IMG/VR virus record: IMGVR_UViG_3300025112_000108
Location: 1-30,829 of that record
Length of the DNA: 30,829 nt
Strand: one strand, 5' to 3'
Source of the DNA: a virus
Shown here: positions 22-28,791 of the stretch, one piece after another
Layout: every line of letters starts with the position of its first letter
How positions within the stretch are numbered: position 1 is the stretch's first letter
The notes under the pieces: generated by a model
Told to the model about the DNA's origin: nothing
What the model saw: the letters and a program-made list of their open reading frames with translations, nothing else
Databases searched by the model: none
Program-made: the position numbers and the translations under genes

Positions 22-1257
22 TTAATAGTCGGGTTGGTTGGCAGCTAAACCCCACTTGTTATCAGGCAGCTTGACTATTTTACCCTTGTTCTTCAGTCTC
101 ATAGCTGCTACCCGGATACCACCTTCTGCAACTTCCAGCTTGACAGCTATCTCTTTATTGTCCATGGGCTTGTCTCTTAATACCTCAAGTATTTTAGATT
201 GTGTATTTATCTTATCCAAGAAGTCATTGTAGGTTACTGCCTCAGGGTCGACTCGTACAAAGTTATCACTAAACTTAAACCTGAATCCCATGGGATTATG
301 AATCTTCGATAGATTACAGTATCTGTGGAACATAGCGATATTAGCCTCATCACCCCCGACATCATCTGCCTTGCACAATTCAAAGATTGAACGAGCATAG
401 TAAGTGAAGTAAACTGACCCATAGATACTCTTTTGCTTACTCTTGGTGTCCTTGGACGTCTGGGCCACTATCAGGCTAGTCACGTTCAACTTGTCGAGTG
501 CATTAAAGAATCGAGTCGCGTTCTCTGTGTCTTTAGAGAGATCGCCACCGGCAGCACGTCCAAGTGAGTCGATGATGACTACCTCAGCTCCCAGTTCCTT
601 GATATACTTCTGTATCTGTTCAATGTCATCGGCAAGTGGCCTCGAACAATGCCTGTGATACAGTTTCATTCCACCTAACCCCTGCCCTTCAACAAGTTTC
701 TTTAGATTCCACTGAGCTATTGGTCCGGGAAGTTCCCAATCGAGTATGACTGTCTTTGTACTCTTATCAGGCACAACAAATCCAAATGGATTATCTAGCC
801 ATGGTAATGTTAAACAAACATAAAATACCAGTGACATATAAGACTTGGTGACTCCCTTCTCTCCAAAGATAATAGTCGGCAGACCTTCAAATAAGATAGG
901 CTCAAGCAGGTATCTAGGTGGCTTAATGTCATCACTGGTGTCCAGTTCGAGTACCGGTTCACCTGCGGCCGCTAACTCTTGAACATTCAAACTTAGTTCA
1001 TCAACGATGGTTAGCCACTTGTCTTTCCAGTCAGGATACTTCTCTGACAGGGAATTGACTAGCATCTTGCGCGATCTGTCAGCACTGAAGTTAAATGTAA
1101 AACTAGGTTCCTCTTGTTGATTCTTGCCCAGTAACAACTTAATCACACCTGTAAGTCTTCCATCAGTATGTGATCTAACTCCACTCACCTTGATAATGAG
1201 ATTCTCGTCCGGCCAAGTGAAAGTATATCCTGTTAGAGAGTGTTCTACATCTGGCAT
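22..1257 (-). CDS. RepA/DnaB-like P-loop ATPase with C-terminal winged helix
   Basis: Probable replication ATPase of the RecA-fold AAA_25/RepA type, 411 aa. A Walker A loop is visible at residues 131-139 (FGEKGVTKS) and a Walker B strand at 226-231 (VVIIDS, Asp230). A strand ending in VAQTSKD follows, as in RepA-like helicases. Residues about 355-405 read as a winged helix-turn-helix, so the protein may bind an origin as well as hydrolyse ATP. The N-terminal 110 residues are not recognised. Its ATG overlaps the methylase stop as TAATG, so the two are probably translationally coupled. It is the last gene of the leftward operon seen here. Fold assignment is fairly sure; the role as helicase or helicase loader is inferred. 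Confidence 0.8.
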   Translation of the reverse strand: MPDVEHSLTGYTFTWPDENLIIKVSGVRSHTDGRLTGVIKLLLGKNQQEEPSFTFNFSADRSRKMLVNSLSEKYPDWKDKWLTIVDELSLNVQELAAAGEPVLELDTSDDIKPPRYLLEPILFEGLPTIIFGEKGVTKSYMSLVFYVCLTLPWLDNPFGFVVPDKSTKTVILDWELPGPIAQWNLKKLVEGQGLGGMKLYHRHCSRPLADDIEQIQKYIKELGAEVVIIDSLGRAAGGDLSKDTENATRFFNALDKLNVTSLIVAQTSKDTKSKQKSIYGSVYFTYYARSIFELCKADDVGGDEANIAMFHRYCNLSKIHNPMGFRFKFSDNFVRVDPEAVTYNDFLDKINTQSKILEVLRDKPMDNKEIAVKLEVAEGGIRVAAMRLKNKGKIVKLPDNKWGLAANQPDY

Positions 1258-2333
1258 TATATTTCCTTTATGAGTTGTTCACCTATTGCGGTTATAACAT
1301 CAGTAGTGACAGCATTTCCCAAGCACTTGTATCTCTGTGTGTCACTCATTTTTTCTGCATAAAAATCCTCTGTTAATCCATATTCTGTCCAACCATCAGG
1401 AAATCCCTGTAATCTTTCACATTCTGTAGGAGTCAAGCGCCTGATTGAGTTTTCTGCAAAGATATTAACTTTGTTTTCAGTTCTTCCGGCAGGTATTGCT
1501 GCCATCACTTCACTGGTATCATAGACTCTATCCTGTTGACTCTTGTAGCCTTTGCCACTCACATCAAATTGGGTTCGCTTAATGAAAGCTCCTCCTCGTT
1601 GTTGTCCGTATGCTGTGTGTAAAGTAGGGGCGCAAATGTTTCCGTCTCTATCAGATGTTTGACTTGCTTCTCCGACAGGAAATACTTTGGGTCTACTGAG
1701 TCCTCTAAGATGTCCGATAATGAACACCCTTTCCCTGTTTTGAGGGATGTCGAAATCCTTGCTGTTAAGCACTTGCCATTGACAGTCATACCCCAACTCA
1801 TCCAGTGATTGAATAATGGTTTGAAAGGTCTTACCTTCATCATGGGAGAGGAGTCCTTTAACATTCTCAAGCCAAAGATAAGGAGCTCTTTTAACCCTTG
1901 CGATTCGGCATATCTCAAAGAAGAGAGTGCCTCTAGTGTCTTCAAATCCTCTTCGCTTTCCAGCAATAGAGAAACTTTGGCAAGGAAATCCCGCACAGAT
2001 GAGATCGTGTTCTGGTATGGCATCAACGTCAACTGATCTGATGTCTCCTTCGTAGATTTCTCCGTAGTGCTTTCTGTAGATTTGACTGGCATACTTGTCC
2101 CACTCGTTTGACCAGACACAAGTAAACTGTCTTTCGTTGAATTCTCTGTCAGTGTATTTGCTAAATTGTCCTCTCTGATCTCGATTTGTTTTAGATTGAA
2201 TGGATTGTAATCCTTGCCCTTCTGCATATTCTTCCTCCGTATCATCTTTGCTTCGGAAGTTCTTCTGAATACTAGTGGCTTCCAGTCCATATCTGAATCC
2301 TCCTATGCCGGCAAAGAGTTCTATAAATCGCAT
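1257..2333 (-). CDS. dcm: DNA cytosine-5 methyltransferase
   Basis: C5-cytosine methylase, 358 aa, with the family motifs in order. The SAM loop FAGIGGFRYGLE is at residues 7-18, the catalytic PCQ at 117-119 (Cys118), ENV at 156-158, QNRERVF at 198-204, and the C-terminal RRLTPTECERLQGFP near 300-315. About 45 charged residues (20-70) are inserted between motif I and motif II; similar insertions occur in phage methylases. The gene overlaps its upstream neighbour as TAATG. No cognate restriction nuclease is visible, so it probably modifies phage DNA against host restriction. Target specificity cannot be read. The +1 frame inside the gene is also open for 243 codons (see findings). Confidence 0.95.
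   Translation of the reverse strand: MRFIELFAGIGGFRYGLEATSIQKNFRSKDDTEEEYAEGQGLQSIQSKTNRDQRGQFSKYTDREFNERQFTCVWSNEWDKYASQIYRKHYGEIYEGDIRSVDVDAIPEHDLICAGFPCQSFSIAGKRRGFEDTRGTLFFEICRIARVKRAPYLWLENVKGLLSHDEGKTFQTIIQSLDELGYDCQWQVLNSKDFDIPQNRERVFIIGHLRGLSRPKVFPVGEASQTSDRDGNICAPTLHTAYGQQRGGAFIKRTQFDVSGKGYKSQQDRVYDTSEVMAAIPAGRTENKVNIFAENSIRRLTPTECERLQGFPDGWTEYGLTEDFYAEKMSDTQRYKCLGNAVTTDVITAIGEQLIKEI
1559..2290 (-). CDS. Long alternate-frame ORF inside the methylase gene (overprinted gene candidate)
   Basis: A 243-codon frame lies entirely inside the cytosine methylase gene, on the same strand but shifted. It contains the stretch CSLSDILEDSVDPKYFLSEK, which resembles phage proteins of uncertain status that occur with cytosine methylases. 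The match is from memory and could reflect the same frame effect in homologues: CSLSDIL is what VFIIGHL becomes one base over. No strong ribosome site was seen at its ATG. It may be a true overprinted gene or a by-product of methylase codons. Confidence 0.25.
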   Translation of the reverse strand: MDWKPLVFRRTSEAKMIRRKNMQKGKDYNPFNLKQIEIREDNLANTLTENSTKDSLLVSGQTSGTSMPVKSTESTTEKSTKETSDQLTLMPYQNTISSVRDFLAKVSLLLESEEDLKTLEALSSLRYAESQGLKELLIFGLRMLKDSSPMMKVRPFKPLFNHWMSWGMTVNGKCLTARISTSLKTGKGCSLSDILEDSVDPKYFLSEKQVKHLIETETFAPLLYTQHTDNNEEELSLSEPNLM

Positions 2334-3290: not shown

Positions 3291-3490
3291 TGTTCTTTGT
3301 AATCAGAACTAAGAAACGCCTGTCCCGAGAGAAAGAGCTAGACAAGTCAATAGGCAAAAGCGCAGGTGTAATTGAGGGTTTCAAGCTGTATGAGTCTTAT
3401 TACTCCCATGGGCCAAAGATCAGGCCATACATCTTAAGAGAGATGGACAACATCATCAGAGAAAAAGGAGAGAGTGTTCAATGGAAATGA
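3290..3490 (+). CDS. Hypothetical protein, 66 aa
   Basis: Not recognised. A basic 66-residue protein with no cysteines and no membrane segment; helix is likely in the first half. The start overlaps the stop of the zinc-ribbon gene as TAATG, and GAAGG lies just upstream. It belongs to the short plus-strand operon. Confidence 0.6.
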   Translation: MFFVIRTKKRLSREKELDKSIGKSAGVIEGFKLYESYYSHGPKIRPYILREMDNIIREKGESVQWK

Positions 3491-3621: not shown

Positions 3622-3800
3622 TGATAGATCAATTCGAGTATCTACTTACTGACGGTGGCATAGACATCTATGGTTATGGTTGTCTGAGGGTAGGAATTGA
3701 CCATAAGACCGGCAAACAAGTGATGGGTTATATAGTAAATACAAGTCACAGTCCTGAACCAAGCTGGCATCACCGAAAAAACGTCTTAGGCACAAAATAG
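3618..3800 (+). CDS. Hypothetical protein, 60 aa
   Basis: Last gene of the rightward operon. The 60-residue product is not recognised; it appears mostly beta, with glycine and tyrosine residues in the first third. A strong TTAAGGAGG site precedes ATGATG. A terminator follows about 60 bases after the stop. Confidence 0.65.
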   Translation: MMIDQFEYLLTDGGIDIYGYGCLRVGIDHKTGKQVMGYIVNTSHSPEPSWHHRKNVLGTK

Positions 3801-3855
3801 GCCTCACCAGATCAACGAGAAGGCCACTGAAAGGATTGGGGTAGTACGATTCTAC

Positions 3856-4059
3856 CTAGGGGGATAGGCTTAAAGACTTATCCCTCTTTCTTATATAATA
3901 ATCAGACCGGGTTGTACTCTTTGCTTCCTCAGGAGTCGGTTGCCTTGGAGGGTTTGCTGGGTCATGGCCACAATTTATGCACTTCTCTAAATACTCATCC
4001 GTGCGAAAGTCAAAGTCTATAAATAAACTACCTCTACTACACTTAGGGCATTTATTCAT
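3856..4059 (-). CDS. Zinc-ribbon protein, 67 aa
   Basis: A two-knuckle zinc ribbon: CPKC at residues 4-7 and CINC at 32-35, about 24 residues apart, followed by a proline-rich linker and a basic, serine-rich tail. It is the last gene of the operon that begins at 9.4 kb. GGAGGTATAAG precedes the ATG. The stop is TAG, and the rightward terminator lies within its 3' end on the other strand. It may bind nucleic acid or be a small structural domain. Confidence 0.65.
   Translation of the reverse strand: MNKCPKCSRGSLFIDFDFRTDEYLEKCINCGHDPANPPRQPTPEEAKSTTRSDYYIRKRDKSLSLSP
3859..3895 (+). terminator. Rho-independent terminator of the rightward operon
   Basis: A stem of about 10 bp (3859-3868 with 3877-3886, two G-T pairs, perfect GGGATA/TATCCC core) has an 8-base loop and is followed by TTTCTTAT on the plus strand. 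It lies antisense to the last codons of the convergent zinc-ribbon gene, so each operon transcribes into the end of the other. Confidence 0.65.
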
Positions 4060-18257: not shown

Positions 18258-19256
18258 TTAACTATCAGGGTTGACGTTGATTAAACAGGCCAAGCTAAAT
18301 TTGCTGGCACACATTAGGCCATTGTACCAAACAAACCTGTTCCGTATGGCATTGTAGTCTTCGGTGAATGTTGCGCGCTCATGGGTCATCTTTCCGGCAT
18401 GTAGTCCCTGAACATCCCTCTCACCCAACTTCATTGCATAGATAATGGTATTGTCCAGTGTGGATGCTCTGGTTGTCGATTTGTTGTAGGTAGATGTGGT
18501 GAGCACGGAGGATGAAGCATCAGGTACGTTGTCCAACTGCCAGTCAGACACAACTATGGGGATATTGTCGTAGGACTCCATGAACTTACCAAACAGTGCA
18601 GATTCAGTCATTACCAGACCTGCGCCTGAACCACCACCACTAGCCCTCTGAAGAGCATTGAGTTTACGTCTTGCTCTCCGTGACATCAGTAGAAGGTCAG
18701 GTTTACCGGGTTTAACTTGGTCAATTAGTTCGTCCATGTATACCATTGTAAGAGCGCCGGATGTGGCGTTGACAGCAATTACCTGAGAGTTATTAAGAGC
18801 ATCAAGATCAGTTGTTGAAGAGCTCTCGAACTCAGCAAGGATTCTCATTAGTCCCTTGAATTGCTTGGTAGTTGAAGAGGTAGTTGTCTGCCCATGAATT
18901 AGAGTATCCTCAAACTCATGTGCCATAGCTTGAGCTGCTAACTCGGTATCAATGGCTTCTGGATTCTGAGTAGCATTGAGAGCTATTGCTGATTTATCCG
19001 TAAGGGCATCCTGAATCAGCGTATAGATGTCGGTGCTTCTCTGCTCATAGGTGCCGGTGTTAGATACGATTGGGTCGCCAACCGTAGTCCATGTAGCATT
19101 AGGTAGTGTTAAAGAGACATTATACTTATATGAGTTACCTTGAATAGATTTCTGAGGCAAAGCACCCGTCAAGGGGCTTTCCTTTACTATCCAGTTGGCG
19201 ACTCCTTTCAGTATGCCGTCTACATCTAGATATTCGTACTGTGTTAATGTCTGCAT
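18258..19256 (-). CDS. Major capsid protein (HK97 fold)
   Basis: A 332-aa protein with the hallmarks of an HK97-type capsid subunit. There is an extended N-terminal arm (residues 1-70), a helix-rich region with QNPEAIDTELAAQAMAHEFEDTL-like spine (about 97-120), PDLLLMSRRARRKLNALQRA at about 185-204, and NIPIVVSDW at about 232-240, which is a common P-loop/A-domain strand. It is preceded by a scaffold gene and followed by decoration-like proteins. GCGAGGGAAA lies before the ATG. No protease was seen, so maturation may be protease-free. Confidence 0.85.
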   Translation of the reverse strand: MQTLTQYEYLDVDGILKGVANWIVKESPLTGALPQKSIQGNSYKYNVSLTLPNATWTTVGDPIVSNTGTYEQRSTDIYTLIQDALTDKSAIALNATQNPEAIDTELAAQAMAHEFEDTLIHGQTTTSSTTKQFKGLMRILAEFESSSTTDLDALNNSQVIAVNATSGALTMVYMDELIDQVKPGKPDLLLMSRRARRKLNALQRASGGGSGAGLVMTESALFGKFMESYDNIPIVVSDWQLDNVPDASSSVLTTSTYNKSTTRASTLDNTIIYAMKLGERDVQGLHAGKMTHERATFTEDYNAIRNRFVWYNGLMCASKFSLACLINVNPDS

Positions 19257-19268
19257 ATTTTCCCTCGC

Positions 19269-20039
19269 TTATTTCGTTTTATTGAGTTGCTTGAATCCTT
19301 CCACAAGCTGCTCACTAGGGCTCAACTTATTAAAGTCAATACCGCCGGGAGCACTCTTTCGGCTAGTATCTATTGTAGTAGTTTTGGTCTTACCTTCATT
19401 TTTTGCCGGCCTCATTGATATTTTAAGAGCTTTGAGTTCCATGTCTGCAACCGTCTTACTGTCTTCGGTTATCTCTTTAATGAACTCTTCGAGACCTTTT
19501 ACAATCTCATCTCCCTTATCAATCTTATACTTGATGGCCAACATGAGCGCGTTATTCCTTATAGTGGCCTCTGCTACATCAGTCTCCCTATCTTTTACTT
19601 CCTGATAGGCTGTGCGGGCATCTCCCATCCACTTAGTAAAATCACGCCTCGTTTTCTGAAATTCCCTTACTTCAGTTGTATCTCCCCACTCTGTAAGTTC
19701 TTTGCCTTCCTGCTGGGCCAAGTCTCTAATTGCTTTGTCAGTTTCAGCCTCTTTCTTCATTTCTTTGATTTCGGCTGTTGCTTCCTGAAGAGCTTTCTGC
19801 ATGGTCTTGGTGCTCTTAGCAGCTATTGAATTGGCCAAACTCTCAGCTTTCTCTCCCAGAATAGTTTGATGCTCTTTCTCTGAGTAAGTCTTCTCGTCCC
19901 CACCCTTATCATCTTCTCCGTCTTTGAGAACCTGCTCCGAATCATCTTTGGAACCTGTTGCCTCTTCCTCCACTTCCCCTTTTACCTCTGCAACCTGCTC
20001 CTCCTTGTTCGTATCCTGCTCTTTAGTTTCGGTAGTCAT
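19269..20039 (-). CDS. Capsid scaffolding protein
   Basis: The start is set at ATG 20039, preceded by AAGGAGTGATT. The 256-aa product is extremely rich in Glu, Lys, Asp and Gln. Its N-terminal 70 residues are acidic and disordered, the middle is a long coiled coil (about 75-215), and the C-terminus is basic with PSEQLVEGFKQLN. This composition and position just before the capsid gene are typical of scaffolds that bind capsid subunits through a basic end. Confidence 0.85.
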   Translation of the reverse strand: MTTETKEQDTNKEEQVAEVKGEVEEEATGSKDDSEQVLKDGEDDKGGDEKTYSEKEHQTILGEKAESLANSIAAKSTKTMQKALQEATAEIKEMKKEAETDKAIRDLAQQEGKELTEWGDTTEVREFQKTRRDFTKWMGDARTAYQEVKDRETDVAEATIRNNALMLAIKYKIDKGDEIVKGLEEFIKEITEDSKTVADMELKALKISMRPAKNEGKTKTTTIDTSRKSAPGGIDFNKLSPSEQLVEGFKQLNKTK

Positions 20040-20050
20040 AATCACTCCTT

Positions 20051-20095
20051 AAAATAAAATTGCCCCATTGGTGCTCTAGGCACTTTCAATGAGGC
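20051..20095 (-). terminator. Terminator-like hairpin in the capsid-operon leader
   Basis: Reading the minus strand, GCCTCATTG pairs with CAATGGGGC (one G-T), enclosing a second stem GTGC/GCAC with a 5-base loop. AATTTTATTTT follows. It lies between the promoter at 20143-20171 and the scaffold start, so it could stop upstream transcription, attenuate the operon, or stabilise the 5' end. Confidence 0.65.
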
Positions 20096-20139
20096 TATCT
20101 GGTAGCTCTGTCTATTTAGTTGTTAACGTACTAGCTTTT

Positions 20140-20319
20140 CTAGTAATAACACACTATCTGTTTGTTGTCAACTTTTTGACTCTTTAATGATGCTGTCTGA
20201 AAATGTGTAAACTCCCCACACTTACAAAGAACAGAGATGCGTCCTTCAAAGTCCCCACCATGCCTCTTGTTGCATTTAGGACATCTAGGGCTACCGTCTA
20301 CAGGTACTACCACTATCAT
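20140..20319 (-). CDS. Com-like zinc-ribbon RNA-binding protein candidate, 59 aa
   Basis: Found by translating the gap. Residues 12-36 read RCPKCNK, GRISVLCKCGEF, i.e. CX2C (13, 16) and CXC (32, 34), much like Mu Com, the small zinc protein that opens a hairpin on the mom mRNA to allow translation. The ATG overlaps the giant protein's TGA. It sits directly before a promoter and leader hairpin of the capsid operon. Similarity to Com is from motif spacing; RNA binding is inferred. Confidence 0.65.
   Translation of the reverse strand: MIVVVPVDGSPRCPKCNKRHGGDFEGRISVLCKCGEFTHFQTASLKSQKVDNKQIVCYY
20143..20171 (-). promoter_or_regulatory. Putative promoter of the scaffold-capsid operon
   Basis: TTGACA (20171-20166), a 17-base spacer and TATTAC (20148-20143) preceded by TGT, a TGn extended -10 that offsets the poor -10. 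It lies within the last codons of the Com-like gene and would give a leader of about 95 bases containing the hairpin. Confidence 0.55.
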
Positions 20320-28408: not shown

Positions 28409-28621
28409 TCAGACATCTCGTTCATACTCATCGGTAGCAAACCTATTATGACTGTTATCAGTAAGTCTCCAGCCAAAATAGCTATTGACTATTGATATTA
28501 TTCTACCACATATAGTACCACACTTAGCACACATAGCTATATGTGGTGTTTTATGAGCAAAACTGACTATATTCTCAAAGATGCCGTGATCGGGACACTC
28601 ATACTCGTATTGAGGGCTCAT
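28409..28621 (-). CDS. FmdB-like zinc-ribbon protein, 70 aa
   Basis: YEYECPDHGIFE near the N-terminus and CAKCGTICGRII further on match the opening of FmdB-type regulatory zinc ribbons (CPxH then CxxC). The start is at ATG 28621, overlapping the upstream stop (TAATG). A GTG at 28633 is an alternative. These small proteins often occur just before portal genes. Function unknown. Confidence 0.65.
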   Translation of the reverse strand: MSPQYEYECPDHGIFENIVSFAHKTPHIAMCAKCGTICGRIISIVNSYFGWRLTDNSHNRFATDEYERDV

Positions 28622-28791
28622 TACTTCACCCACTCGAATTTATGTTTTCTCAGTAAATCCCAACAGAAATGCAGCCGGTTCCAGAATTTTAACTTGCACA
28701 TCTCGTTAAAGTAGTTCCCCCAGCCATCTCTAAGTGTTTTCTGTATCATCTTGGTCTGCTTTCTCTTAAACTTTATGTCTTTCTTATTCAT
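28621..28791 (-). CDS. Basic hypothetical protein, 56 aa
   Basis: The start is at ATG 28791, after GGAG six bases upstream and overlapping the previous stop as ATGA. The product is lysine-rich at its N-terminus (MNKKDIKFKRKQTKMIQK) and rich in tryptophan and phenylalanine after that. It may contact membrane or nucleic acid. No family is seen. Confidence 0.5.
   Translation of the reverse strand: MNKKDIKFKRKQTKMIQKTLRDGWGNYFNEMCKLKFWNRLHFCWDLLRKHKFEWVK

Follow-up and report, generated by a model that had tools for sequence, protein, structure and literature searches.

What does a Com-like zinc protein do when its gene stands in front of the capsid genes of a phage? To our knowledge, nearly all work on Com concerns its role in activating the DNA-modification gene of Mu. 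In the stretch of DNA analysed here (hereafter the window), a virus record of 30,829 bases, a gene of this kind is followed on the minus strand by a promoter-like site, a terminator-like hairpin, a scaffold-like gene and the major capsid gene (Table 1). An initial annotation, made from the sequence alone, had suggested that the zinc protein, or the hairpin by itself, controls capsid expression by attenuation. We conclude that the phage probably uses the Com-like protein together with the leader to switch on its shell-protein genes. As to the mechanism, we favour with moderate confidence antitermination, in which the protein, acting on a target element of its own, governs read-through into the scaffold-capsid operon.

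Table 1. Features of the com-like gene, the leader and the scaffold-capsid operon, in the order of transcription.
Feature	Position	Strand	Basis or remark
Com-like zinc protein gene	20140..20319	(-)	59-aa ORF, CX2C ... CXC
Putative sigma-70 extended -10 promoter, TTGACA-17-TGT-TATTAC	20143..20171	(-)	Consensus only; expected start near 20136
Conserved leader box, GTTAACAACTAAATA / YTTAACAAYTRAATA	20113..20127	(-)	Just upstream of hairpin 1; similar in L176, L185 and L195, partly in L200
Com-type hairpin 1, GCUA-CCAGA-UAGC, GCUACCAGAUAGC	20094..20106	(-)	Loop C-N2-3-GA in all 8 leaders
Intrinsic terminator (predicted), 9-bp stem tipped by hairpin 2, U-rich tail	20051..20095	(-)	Fold and covariation
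Com-type hairpin 2, GUGC-CUAGA-GCAC	20071..20083	(-)	SELEX motif of Com; covarying stem and kept loop in 8 leaders
Scaffold-like gene, 258-aa ORF	19269..20039	(-)	Precedes capsid gene; acidic, coiled-coil-like composition
Major capsid protein gene, epsilon15 gp7 type	18258..19256	(-)	PHROG 212, E 4e-37; NF045672, E 6e-31, above cut-off; PF20911, above gathering score

The ATG of the com-like gene overlaps the TGA stop codon of an upstream 1862-aa gene and, as the initial annotation had stated, its 59-aa product (20319-20140) carries one CX2C pair (C13 and C16; CPKC) and one CXC pair (C32 and C34; CKC). The relationship to Com that was read from this layout could not be established with the window protein alone. 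Direct profile search gave no PF10122 match up to E 10, the classical com protein profile failed to recognise the protein, and Pfam, NCBIfam and PHROG profiles gave nothing firm (PHROG 6417, ‘translational regulator’, was a weak match with E 0.09). Likewise, searched by itself, the protein yielded only chance matches among phage records and no relatives among viral contigs. An alignment of 15 Com members proved too divergent for use in scanning, and the AlphaFold structure model was of low confidence (pLDDT 60) and too weak for a fold search. When the capsid gene was used as the query, we found 10 relatives, including L005, whose 54-aa protein in the same position matches PF10122 above the gathering score (E 4e-5) and the window protein by BLASTP (37% over 41 aa, E 2e-8). 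Scans with the L005 and window proteins, and then with a wider set, retrieved Com-like proteins from unrelated phages. PF10122 matches 11 of the 19 com-capsid proteins. A profile built from the 18 counterparts other than the window finds the window protein with E 4.7e-8 (best of 4999 shuffles, 0.014). All four cysteines align, but the second pair reads CXC in the window protein and CX4C in that of L194; a CXC pair in place of the CX2C of Com could change zinc binding. The proposed relationship thus stands through the L005 counterpart and the 18-member profile and fails as a match of the window protein itself to PF10122, which is why we name the protein Com-like. Judged by sequence comparison, it is a divergent branch of the Com relatives.

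Downstream, the features described in the initial annotation were found in place. The last two Tyr codons of the com-like gene form the -10 hexamer of the putative promoter, so that the gene does end inside an extended -10, as far as promoter consensus goes. This hexamer (TATTAC) is without the final T of the consensus, and the site is among the four best-scoring sigma-70-like sites of the window when both strands are scanned. In L176, L195 and L196, too, a TG-extended promoter-like site stands before this leader, with a weaker one in L200. The two-part hairpin (20095-20062, minus strand; whole sequence GCCUCAUUGAAAGUGCCUAGAGCACCAAUGGGGC) is composed of GCCUCAUUG-AAA-GUGC-CUAGA-GCAC-CAAUGGGGC and is directly followed by the U-rich tail AAUUUUAUUUU (20061-20051) and by the Shine-Dalgarno sequence AAGGAG (20050-20045) of the scaffold gene. 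This gene, with its ATG at 20039, is the first one past the leader and the next one after the com-like gene, at least 95 nt downstream; profile searches gave no family match for its product. The hairpin folds with -16.3 kcal/mol (z -3.4 against dinucleotide shuffles), and a stable G-C-based stem with a U-rich tract meets the criterion for an intrinsic terminator, termination itself being predicted. A simple terminator scan of the window did not report it, owing to a bulge and to the AA that precedes the U run, and Rfam gave no match at the leader.

Hairpin 1, which the initial annotation does not mention, lies 23 nt upstream of hairpin 2. In the eight conserved leaders described below, that of the window included, its UAGC 3′ arm supplies the basal A/G/C of the 5′ arm of the terminator. 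Since this arm is common to both structures, hairpin 1 and the terminator cannot both form fully, and loss of the shared arm costs the terminator about 6-7 kcal/mol. We regard hairpin 1 as an antiterminator candidate. On its own, it is weak in the window (-1.2 kcal/mol, against -16.5 kcal/mol for the terminator) and displaces only two terminator positions, so that much rests on protein binding. The tandem of both hairpins is the sole such pair on either strand of the 30.8-kb window, and no tandem was present in 4112 background windows.

The initial annotation had invoked Com's action on an mRNA hairpin, an argument strengthened by the published target motif. Nowacka et al. used SELEX and SHAPE to define what Com recognises: a hairpin loop containing CC(N)2-3GAG, together with a bipartite motif, GAG(N)2CC; the target in Mu is the 19-mer GAAUGCCUGCGAGCAUCCC (PMC6483171). 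Our motif scan finds the same hairpin in Mu. In the window, the inner hairpin GUG-CCUAGAG-CAC-C contains both CC(UA)GAG and GAG(CA)CC, and a target hairpin with a C-G closing pair is found beside the gene (GTGC-CTAGA-GCAC, 20083-20071). The complete bipartite motif has one mismatch, in its left half, in the window and is exact in L005 (GAGAACCUAGAGUUCC) and L195 (GAGAACCUUGAGUUCC), with the form GAGAACC-UA/UU-GAGUUCC. In the 2.87 Mb of strand sequence analysed there are 41 exact copies, 33 of them in the interval from -120 to +600 around a com stop codon. Generality was evaluated in the Com loci of named phages and in 80 com loci from bacterial genomes. Of the 80 genome loci, 50 had the strict hairpin at the 3′ end of com, often twice in tandem, compared with 2.1% of background windows. 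A first motif, with a mandatory C-G closing pair, missed hairpin 1 and several relatives; after inspection it was widened once, to any Watson-Crick closing pair with a C-N2-3-GA loop, and the background rates were recomputed. Among 83 distinct classical com loci, 57 have a C-N2-3-GA hairpin where com ends; terminator-like matches in classical com loci fall mostly within coding sequence.

A reverse test was carried out with a DNA pattern that comprised the hairpin tip, the loop and the U tract only and that retrieved 22 viral contigs. The 4-bp tip stem was paired in three of them, and in all three the site had a com-like gene before it and a scaffold gene after it, an arrangement found in none of the 19 unpaired matches (Fisher p 6e-4). 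A second pattern, based on the upstream box, regained those three and added L194/L197, L195, L196 and L200. L198 and L199 were discarded as leader relatives, being GC-rich chance matches. The com gene was seen directly in L195, L196 and L200, and further upstream in L194. Altogether, the window and seven further phages provide eight distinct leaders, each preceded by a com-like gene and followed by a scaffold gene (8/8), and these stand before capsid proteins of at least four families (the capsid gene of L176, L194 and L195 was assigned from position). Among the annotated phage records that were searched, no cultured phage with such an arrangement turned up.

Comparison of the eight leaders revealed that hairpin 1 is GCUA-(C-N2-3-GA)-UAGC in every one, while hairpin 2 keeps the loop in NNNN-(C-N2-3-GA)-NNNN with compensatory changes in the stem (GUGC/GCAC, GAAC/GUUC, GACU/AGUC, GAAU/AUUC and GGCU/AGCC). 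In the terminator stem, 95% of the pairs are kept and six pairs have changed on both sides, in 16 such cells. None of 500 shuffles reached its paired percentage or its covariation score, and pairing fell to 52-54% when the partner was shifted by one column. A covariance model of the eight leaders (R1) scores them at 62-81 bits (window site, 61.8 bits), the best other match in 533 kb being one of 28 bits at another com locus (L079). High scores are to be expected for the leaders that built the model, and it is the gap to the rest that is informative. By sequence comparison, the coupling of com gene and leader is well supported. An HNH-like ORF is found between com and the leader in L176 (10789-11157) and in L194, in which com and its target thus remain linked despite the insertion. 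In L194 and L196, the leader contains one more conserved stem, CTAGGG-TG(..)CAAAT-CCCTAG, which precedes hairpin 1 by about 30-55 nt; a tRNA-like element was ruled out there by a negative ARAGORN result.

We also examined 16 com-capsid loci picked by com protein similarity alone, which are metagenomic and partly related, and whose downstream genes encode prohead proteases and capsid proteins. A Watson-Crick Com-type hairpin occurs within 150 nt before the capsid module in 11 of the 16 (background, 1.9%) and two in tandem in five (background, 0/4112). Applying one strict rule, a hairpin in conflict with the terminator or nested in it was found in 10 of the 16 loci versus 5 of 452 other terminators (p 1.8e-13); without the window and with near relatives collapsed, the count was 6/12 (p 3e-8). 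In L065, L074, L083 and L067, GCGU-CUUGA-ACGC has its 3′ arm in common with a terminator of -23 to -28 kcal/mol, and in L063, L072, L076 and L086 hairpin and terminator exclude each other in a related manner, with G-U pairs in the hairpin or a loop spacer of 4 nt. The 3′ arm of the Com hairpin, or its whole site, lies in the 5′ arm of a terminator in independent phages (L063, L065/L074/L083, L072, L076 and L086). L075 is instructive: its two hairpins precede the protease gene by 39 and 72 nt but follow com at a distance of more than 440 nt.

A mechanism can be proposed from this arrangement. Transcripts initiated at the promoter that overlaps the com stop codon, or further upstream, would reach the terminator before the scaffold ribosome site; both use of this promoter and termination in vivo are inferred. 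In the absence of Com, the full 9-bp stem would form and most transcripts would stop. The Com-like protein made from the preceding gene would bind both of the tandem hairpins, whose C-N2-3-GA loops overlie the terminator, RNA binding by the 59-aa protein being again an inference. With hairpin 1 held closed, the basal G-C pairs would be lost to the terminator and RNA polymerase would then continue into the scaffold and capsid genes. Attenuation with a Com-stabilised antiterminator is, in our inference, the simplest reading, and the attenuation idea of the initial annotation gains support from the overlap between hairpin and terminator.

That binding relieves termination rather than strengthening it is likewise inferred, and the opposite effect has to be considered. 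The Com-like protein could act as a repressor, stabilising the terminator by binding to hairpin 2 and setting the scaffold-capsid level by negative feedback. This role is not excluded, because hairpin 2 belongs to the terminator in all but one of the eight leaders and its binding is there compatible with the stop structure. We nevertheless consider repression unlikely, for the same reasons from which the direction of activation was inferred: hairpin 1, kept in 8/8 leaders, competes with the terminator base and excludes it; Com hairpin and terminator are mutually exclusive in unrelated phages as well; and Com is an activator wherever it has been studied (PMC6483171).

Alternatively, Com might control translation of the scaffold gene as it does that of mom in Mu, the U-tract hairpin being incidental. 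Classical Com hairpins are located 15-44 nt ahead of the next start codon, and hairpin 2 of the window, which ends 31 nt before the ATG, falls within this spacing. However, the Shine-Dalgarno sequence and the start codon of the scaffold gene sit 3′ of the terminator stem and the U run, outside the stem and unlike in the inhibition stem of Mu, which makes Mu-like control less likely. In addition, a U-tract terminator overlapped by a Com hairpin recurs across the com-capsid loci, and in L005 and the L065-type loci a distance of 60-100 nt or more separates the element from the start codon. We judge translational control to be improbable.

Slightly less credible still is that the hairpin is an ordinary terminator, or a stabiliser of the mRNA 5′ end, before an abundantly expressed gene, with the zinc protein as unrelated cargo. 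A terminator-like structure before the scaffold gene is indeed kept in at least 6 of 13 close window relatives without a com-like gene, in which unrelated small genes, some of them with zinc motifs, take the place of com. Yet none of these 13 has a Com-type hairpin before the scaffold gene, hairpin and com were together in every leader found, including those retrieved by the DNA pattern only, and the loop agrees with an independent SELEX motif. Loss of the hairpin beside this gene in relatives had been named beforehand as a result that would refute the proposal; the hairpin is instead kept beside com in seven further phages and absent from the 13 com-less relatives. That the real target is a DNA-modification gene elsewhere is very improbable: most known com genes sit before such a gene and the window encodes a C-5 cytosine methylase (1257-2333, minus strand; PF00145, E 6e-86) about 18 kb from com, but no tandem Com-type site is near this gene, only a weak G-U-rich hairpin (2440-2455).

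Small zinc proteins recur near head genes. In the window, a Zn_ribbon_8-like gene, below the Pfam cut-off, is found at 28409-28633 (minus strand), and the place of com in com-less relatives is occupied by an Ada-type zinc protein or a zinc-ribbon-like ORF (L018:5239-5391; L030:5996-6196).

Several com loci outside this set deserve mention. In L116, a contig from a Syntrophomonas genome, a com-like gene is accompanied by three exact bipartite Com motifs, one upstream and two downstream (3420-3460, 3694-3770 and 3809-3860), each of which enters the 5′ arm of a terminator-like hairpin; they precede thiolase and 3-hydroxyacyl-CoA dehydrogenase genes, a possible non-phage use of Com antitermination. 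In L077 (3902-3955), a com-like gene and an exact bipartite motif that enters a strong terminator are followed by a P22-like portal gene (PF16510), so that targets are not capsid genes alone. In the Bacillus phages Slash and Stills (L015:3060-3180 and L050:1560-1690), a very strong terminator stands directly after com, and its 5′ arm GAGCACC could alternatively pair with an upstream GTGCC. A common gene of roughly 370 aa, outside the mom and methylase clusters, is located 80-160 nt downstream of com in L042, L113, L118, L130, L131 and L152; it may be a modification gene, as yet uncharacterised, that Com controls. Finally, in L093 and L104, from WOR-1 bacteria, the com-like gene and the beginning of a class II (D/K/N) tRNA synthetase gene overlap, and no Com hairpin was found at either.

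On the whole, we offer only tentatively, and with less confidence than antitermination in the window, the wider hypothesis that the Com family consists of widespread RNA-binding antiterminators that act through tandem C-N2-3-GA hairpins placed over terminators, in capsid or portal operons of unrelated phages as well as in the Syntrophomonas thiolase/3-hydroxyacyl-CoA dehydrogenase operon, control of mom and methylase genes being one branch. An incomplete search of open-access papers revealed no precedent for Com in antitermination or capsid control (subscription journals were not covered). Within that literature, acting on a terminator and a capsid operon would be a job not known for the Com family, and nothing found there contradicts the statement of the initial annotation that such a use is, to its knowledge, undescribed. 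If the proposal is true, one of the smallest antiterminators known, with about 50 residues, would have evolved apart from ANTAR and BglG towards the same two-hairpin logic. It would account for the timing of capsid synthesis in many uncultured phages, provide an annotation rule (a com-like gene accompanied by C-N2-3-GA hairpins that overlie a terminator) and offer a compact part for the construction of RNA switches.

Other phages and bacteria override terminators by different means. Lambda N and Q and the HK022 put RNA allow terminators to be overridden for late and structural phage genes by modifying RNA polymerase for many downstream terminators; unlike them, the switch of the window appears to be local to one terminator. 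Proteins of the BglG/SacY/LicT type stabilise an RAT hairpin that overlaps the terminator 5′ arm; they are controlled by phosphorylation and use a single, larger RAT hairpin. The arrangement proposed for the window is similar, a protein-stabilised hairpin over the 5′ arm of a terminator, although the proteins of this antiterminator family (PMC9981650) are unrelated to ours. In anatomy, there is a likeness to the targets of the ANTAR proteins EutV, NasR and AmiR, two tandem hexaloop hairpins of which one excludes the terminator (PMC3369931, PMC8934654): in both cases small tandem hairpins have conserved loop bases, one of them excludes an intrinsic terminator, and one protein recognises the two, binding being inferred in the window. 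In contrast to ANTAR, the window protein is of the zinc ribbon type and has no ANTAR domain, its loops are CCAGA and CUAGA, of the C-N2-3-GA type, instead of hexaloops with A1 and G4, and the genes are those of a phage capsid and not catabolic operons, with no known signal input. With the com-mom system of Mu (PF10122; PMC6483171), the window shares a small zinc protein with four Cys whose gene closely precedes the target gene, a target hairpin with a C-N2-3-GA loop and a spacing of tandem sites similar to that of many Com loci. The protein differs from Com in its CXC pair and in the lack of a direct PF10122 match, and its target is a scaffold-capsid operon and not a DNA modification gene, the next gene being neither mom nor a methylase that overlaps com. 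Moreover, the hairpins lie over a U-tract terminator, whereas the target of Com in Mu is the start region of mom, where translation is inhibited by a structure of a kind that does not enclose the start codon or ribosome site in the window. Com is known as a translational activator, and the model that we propose for its relative in the window is a transcriptional one.
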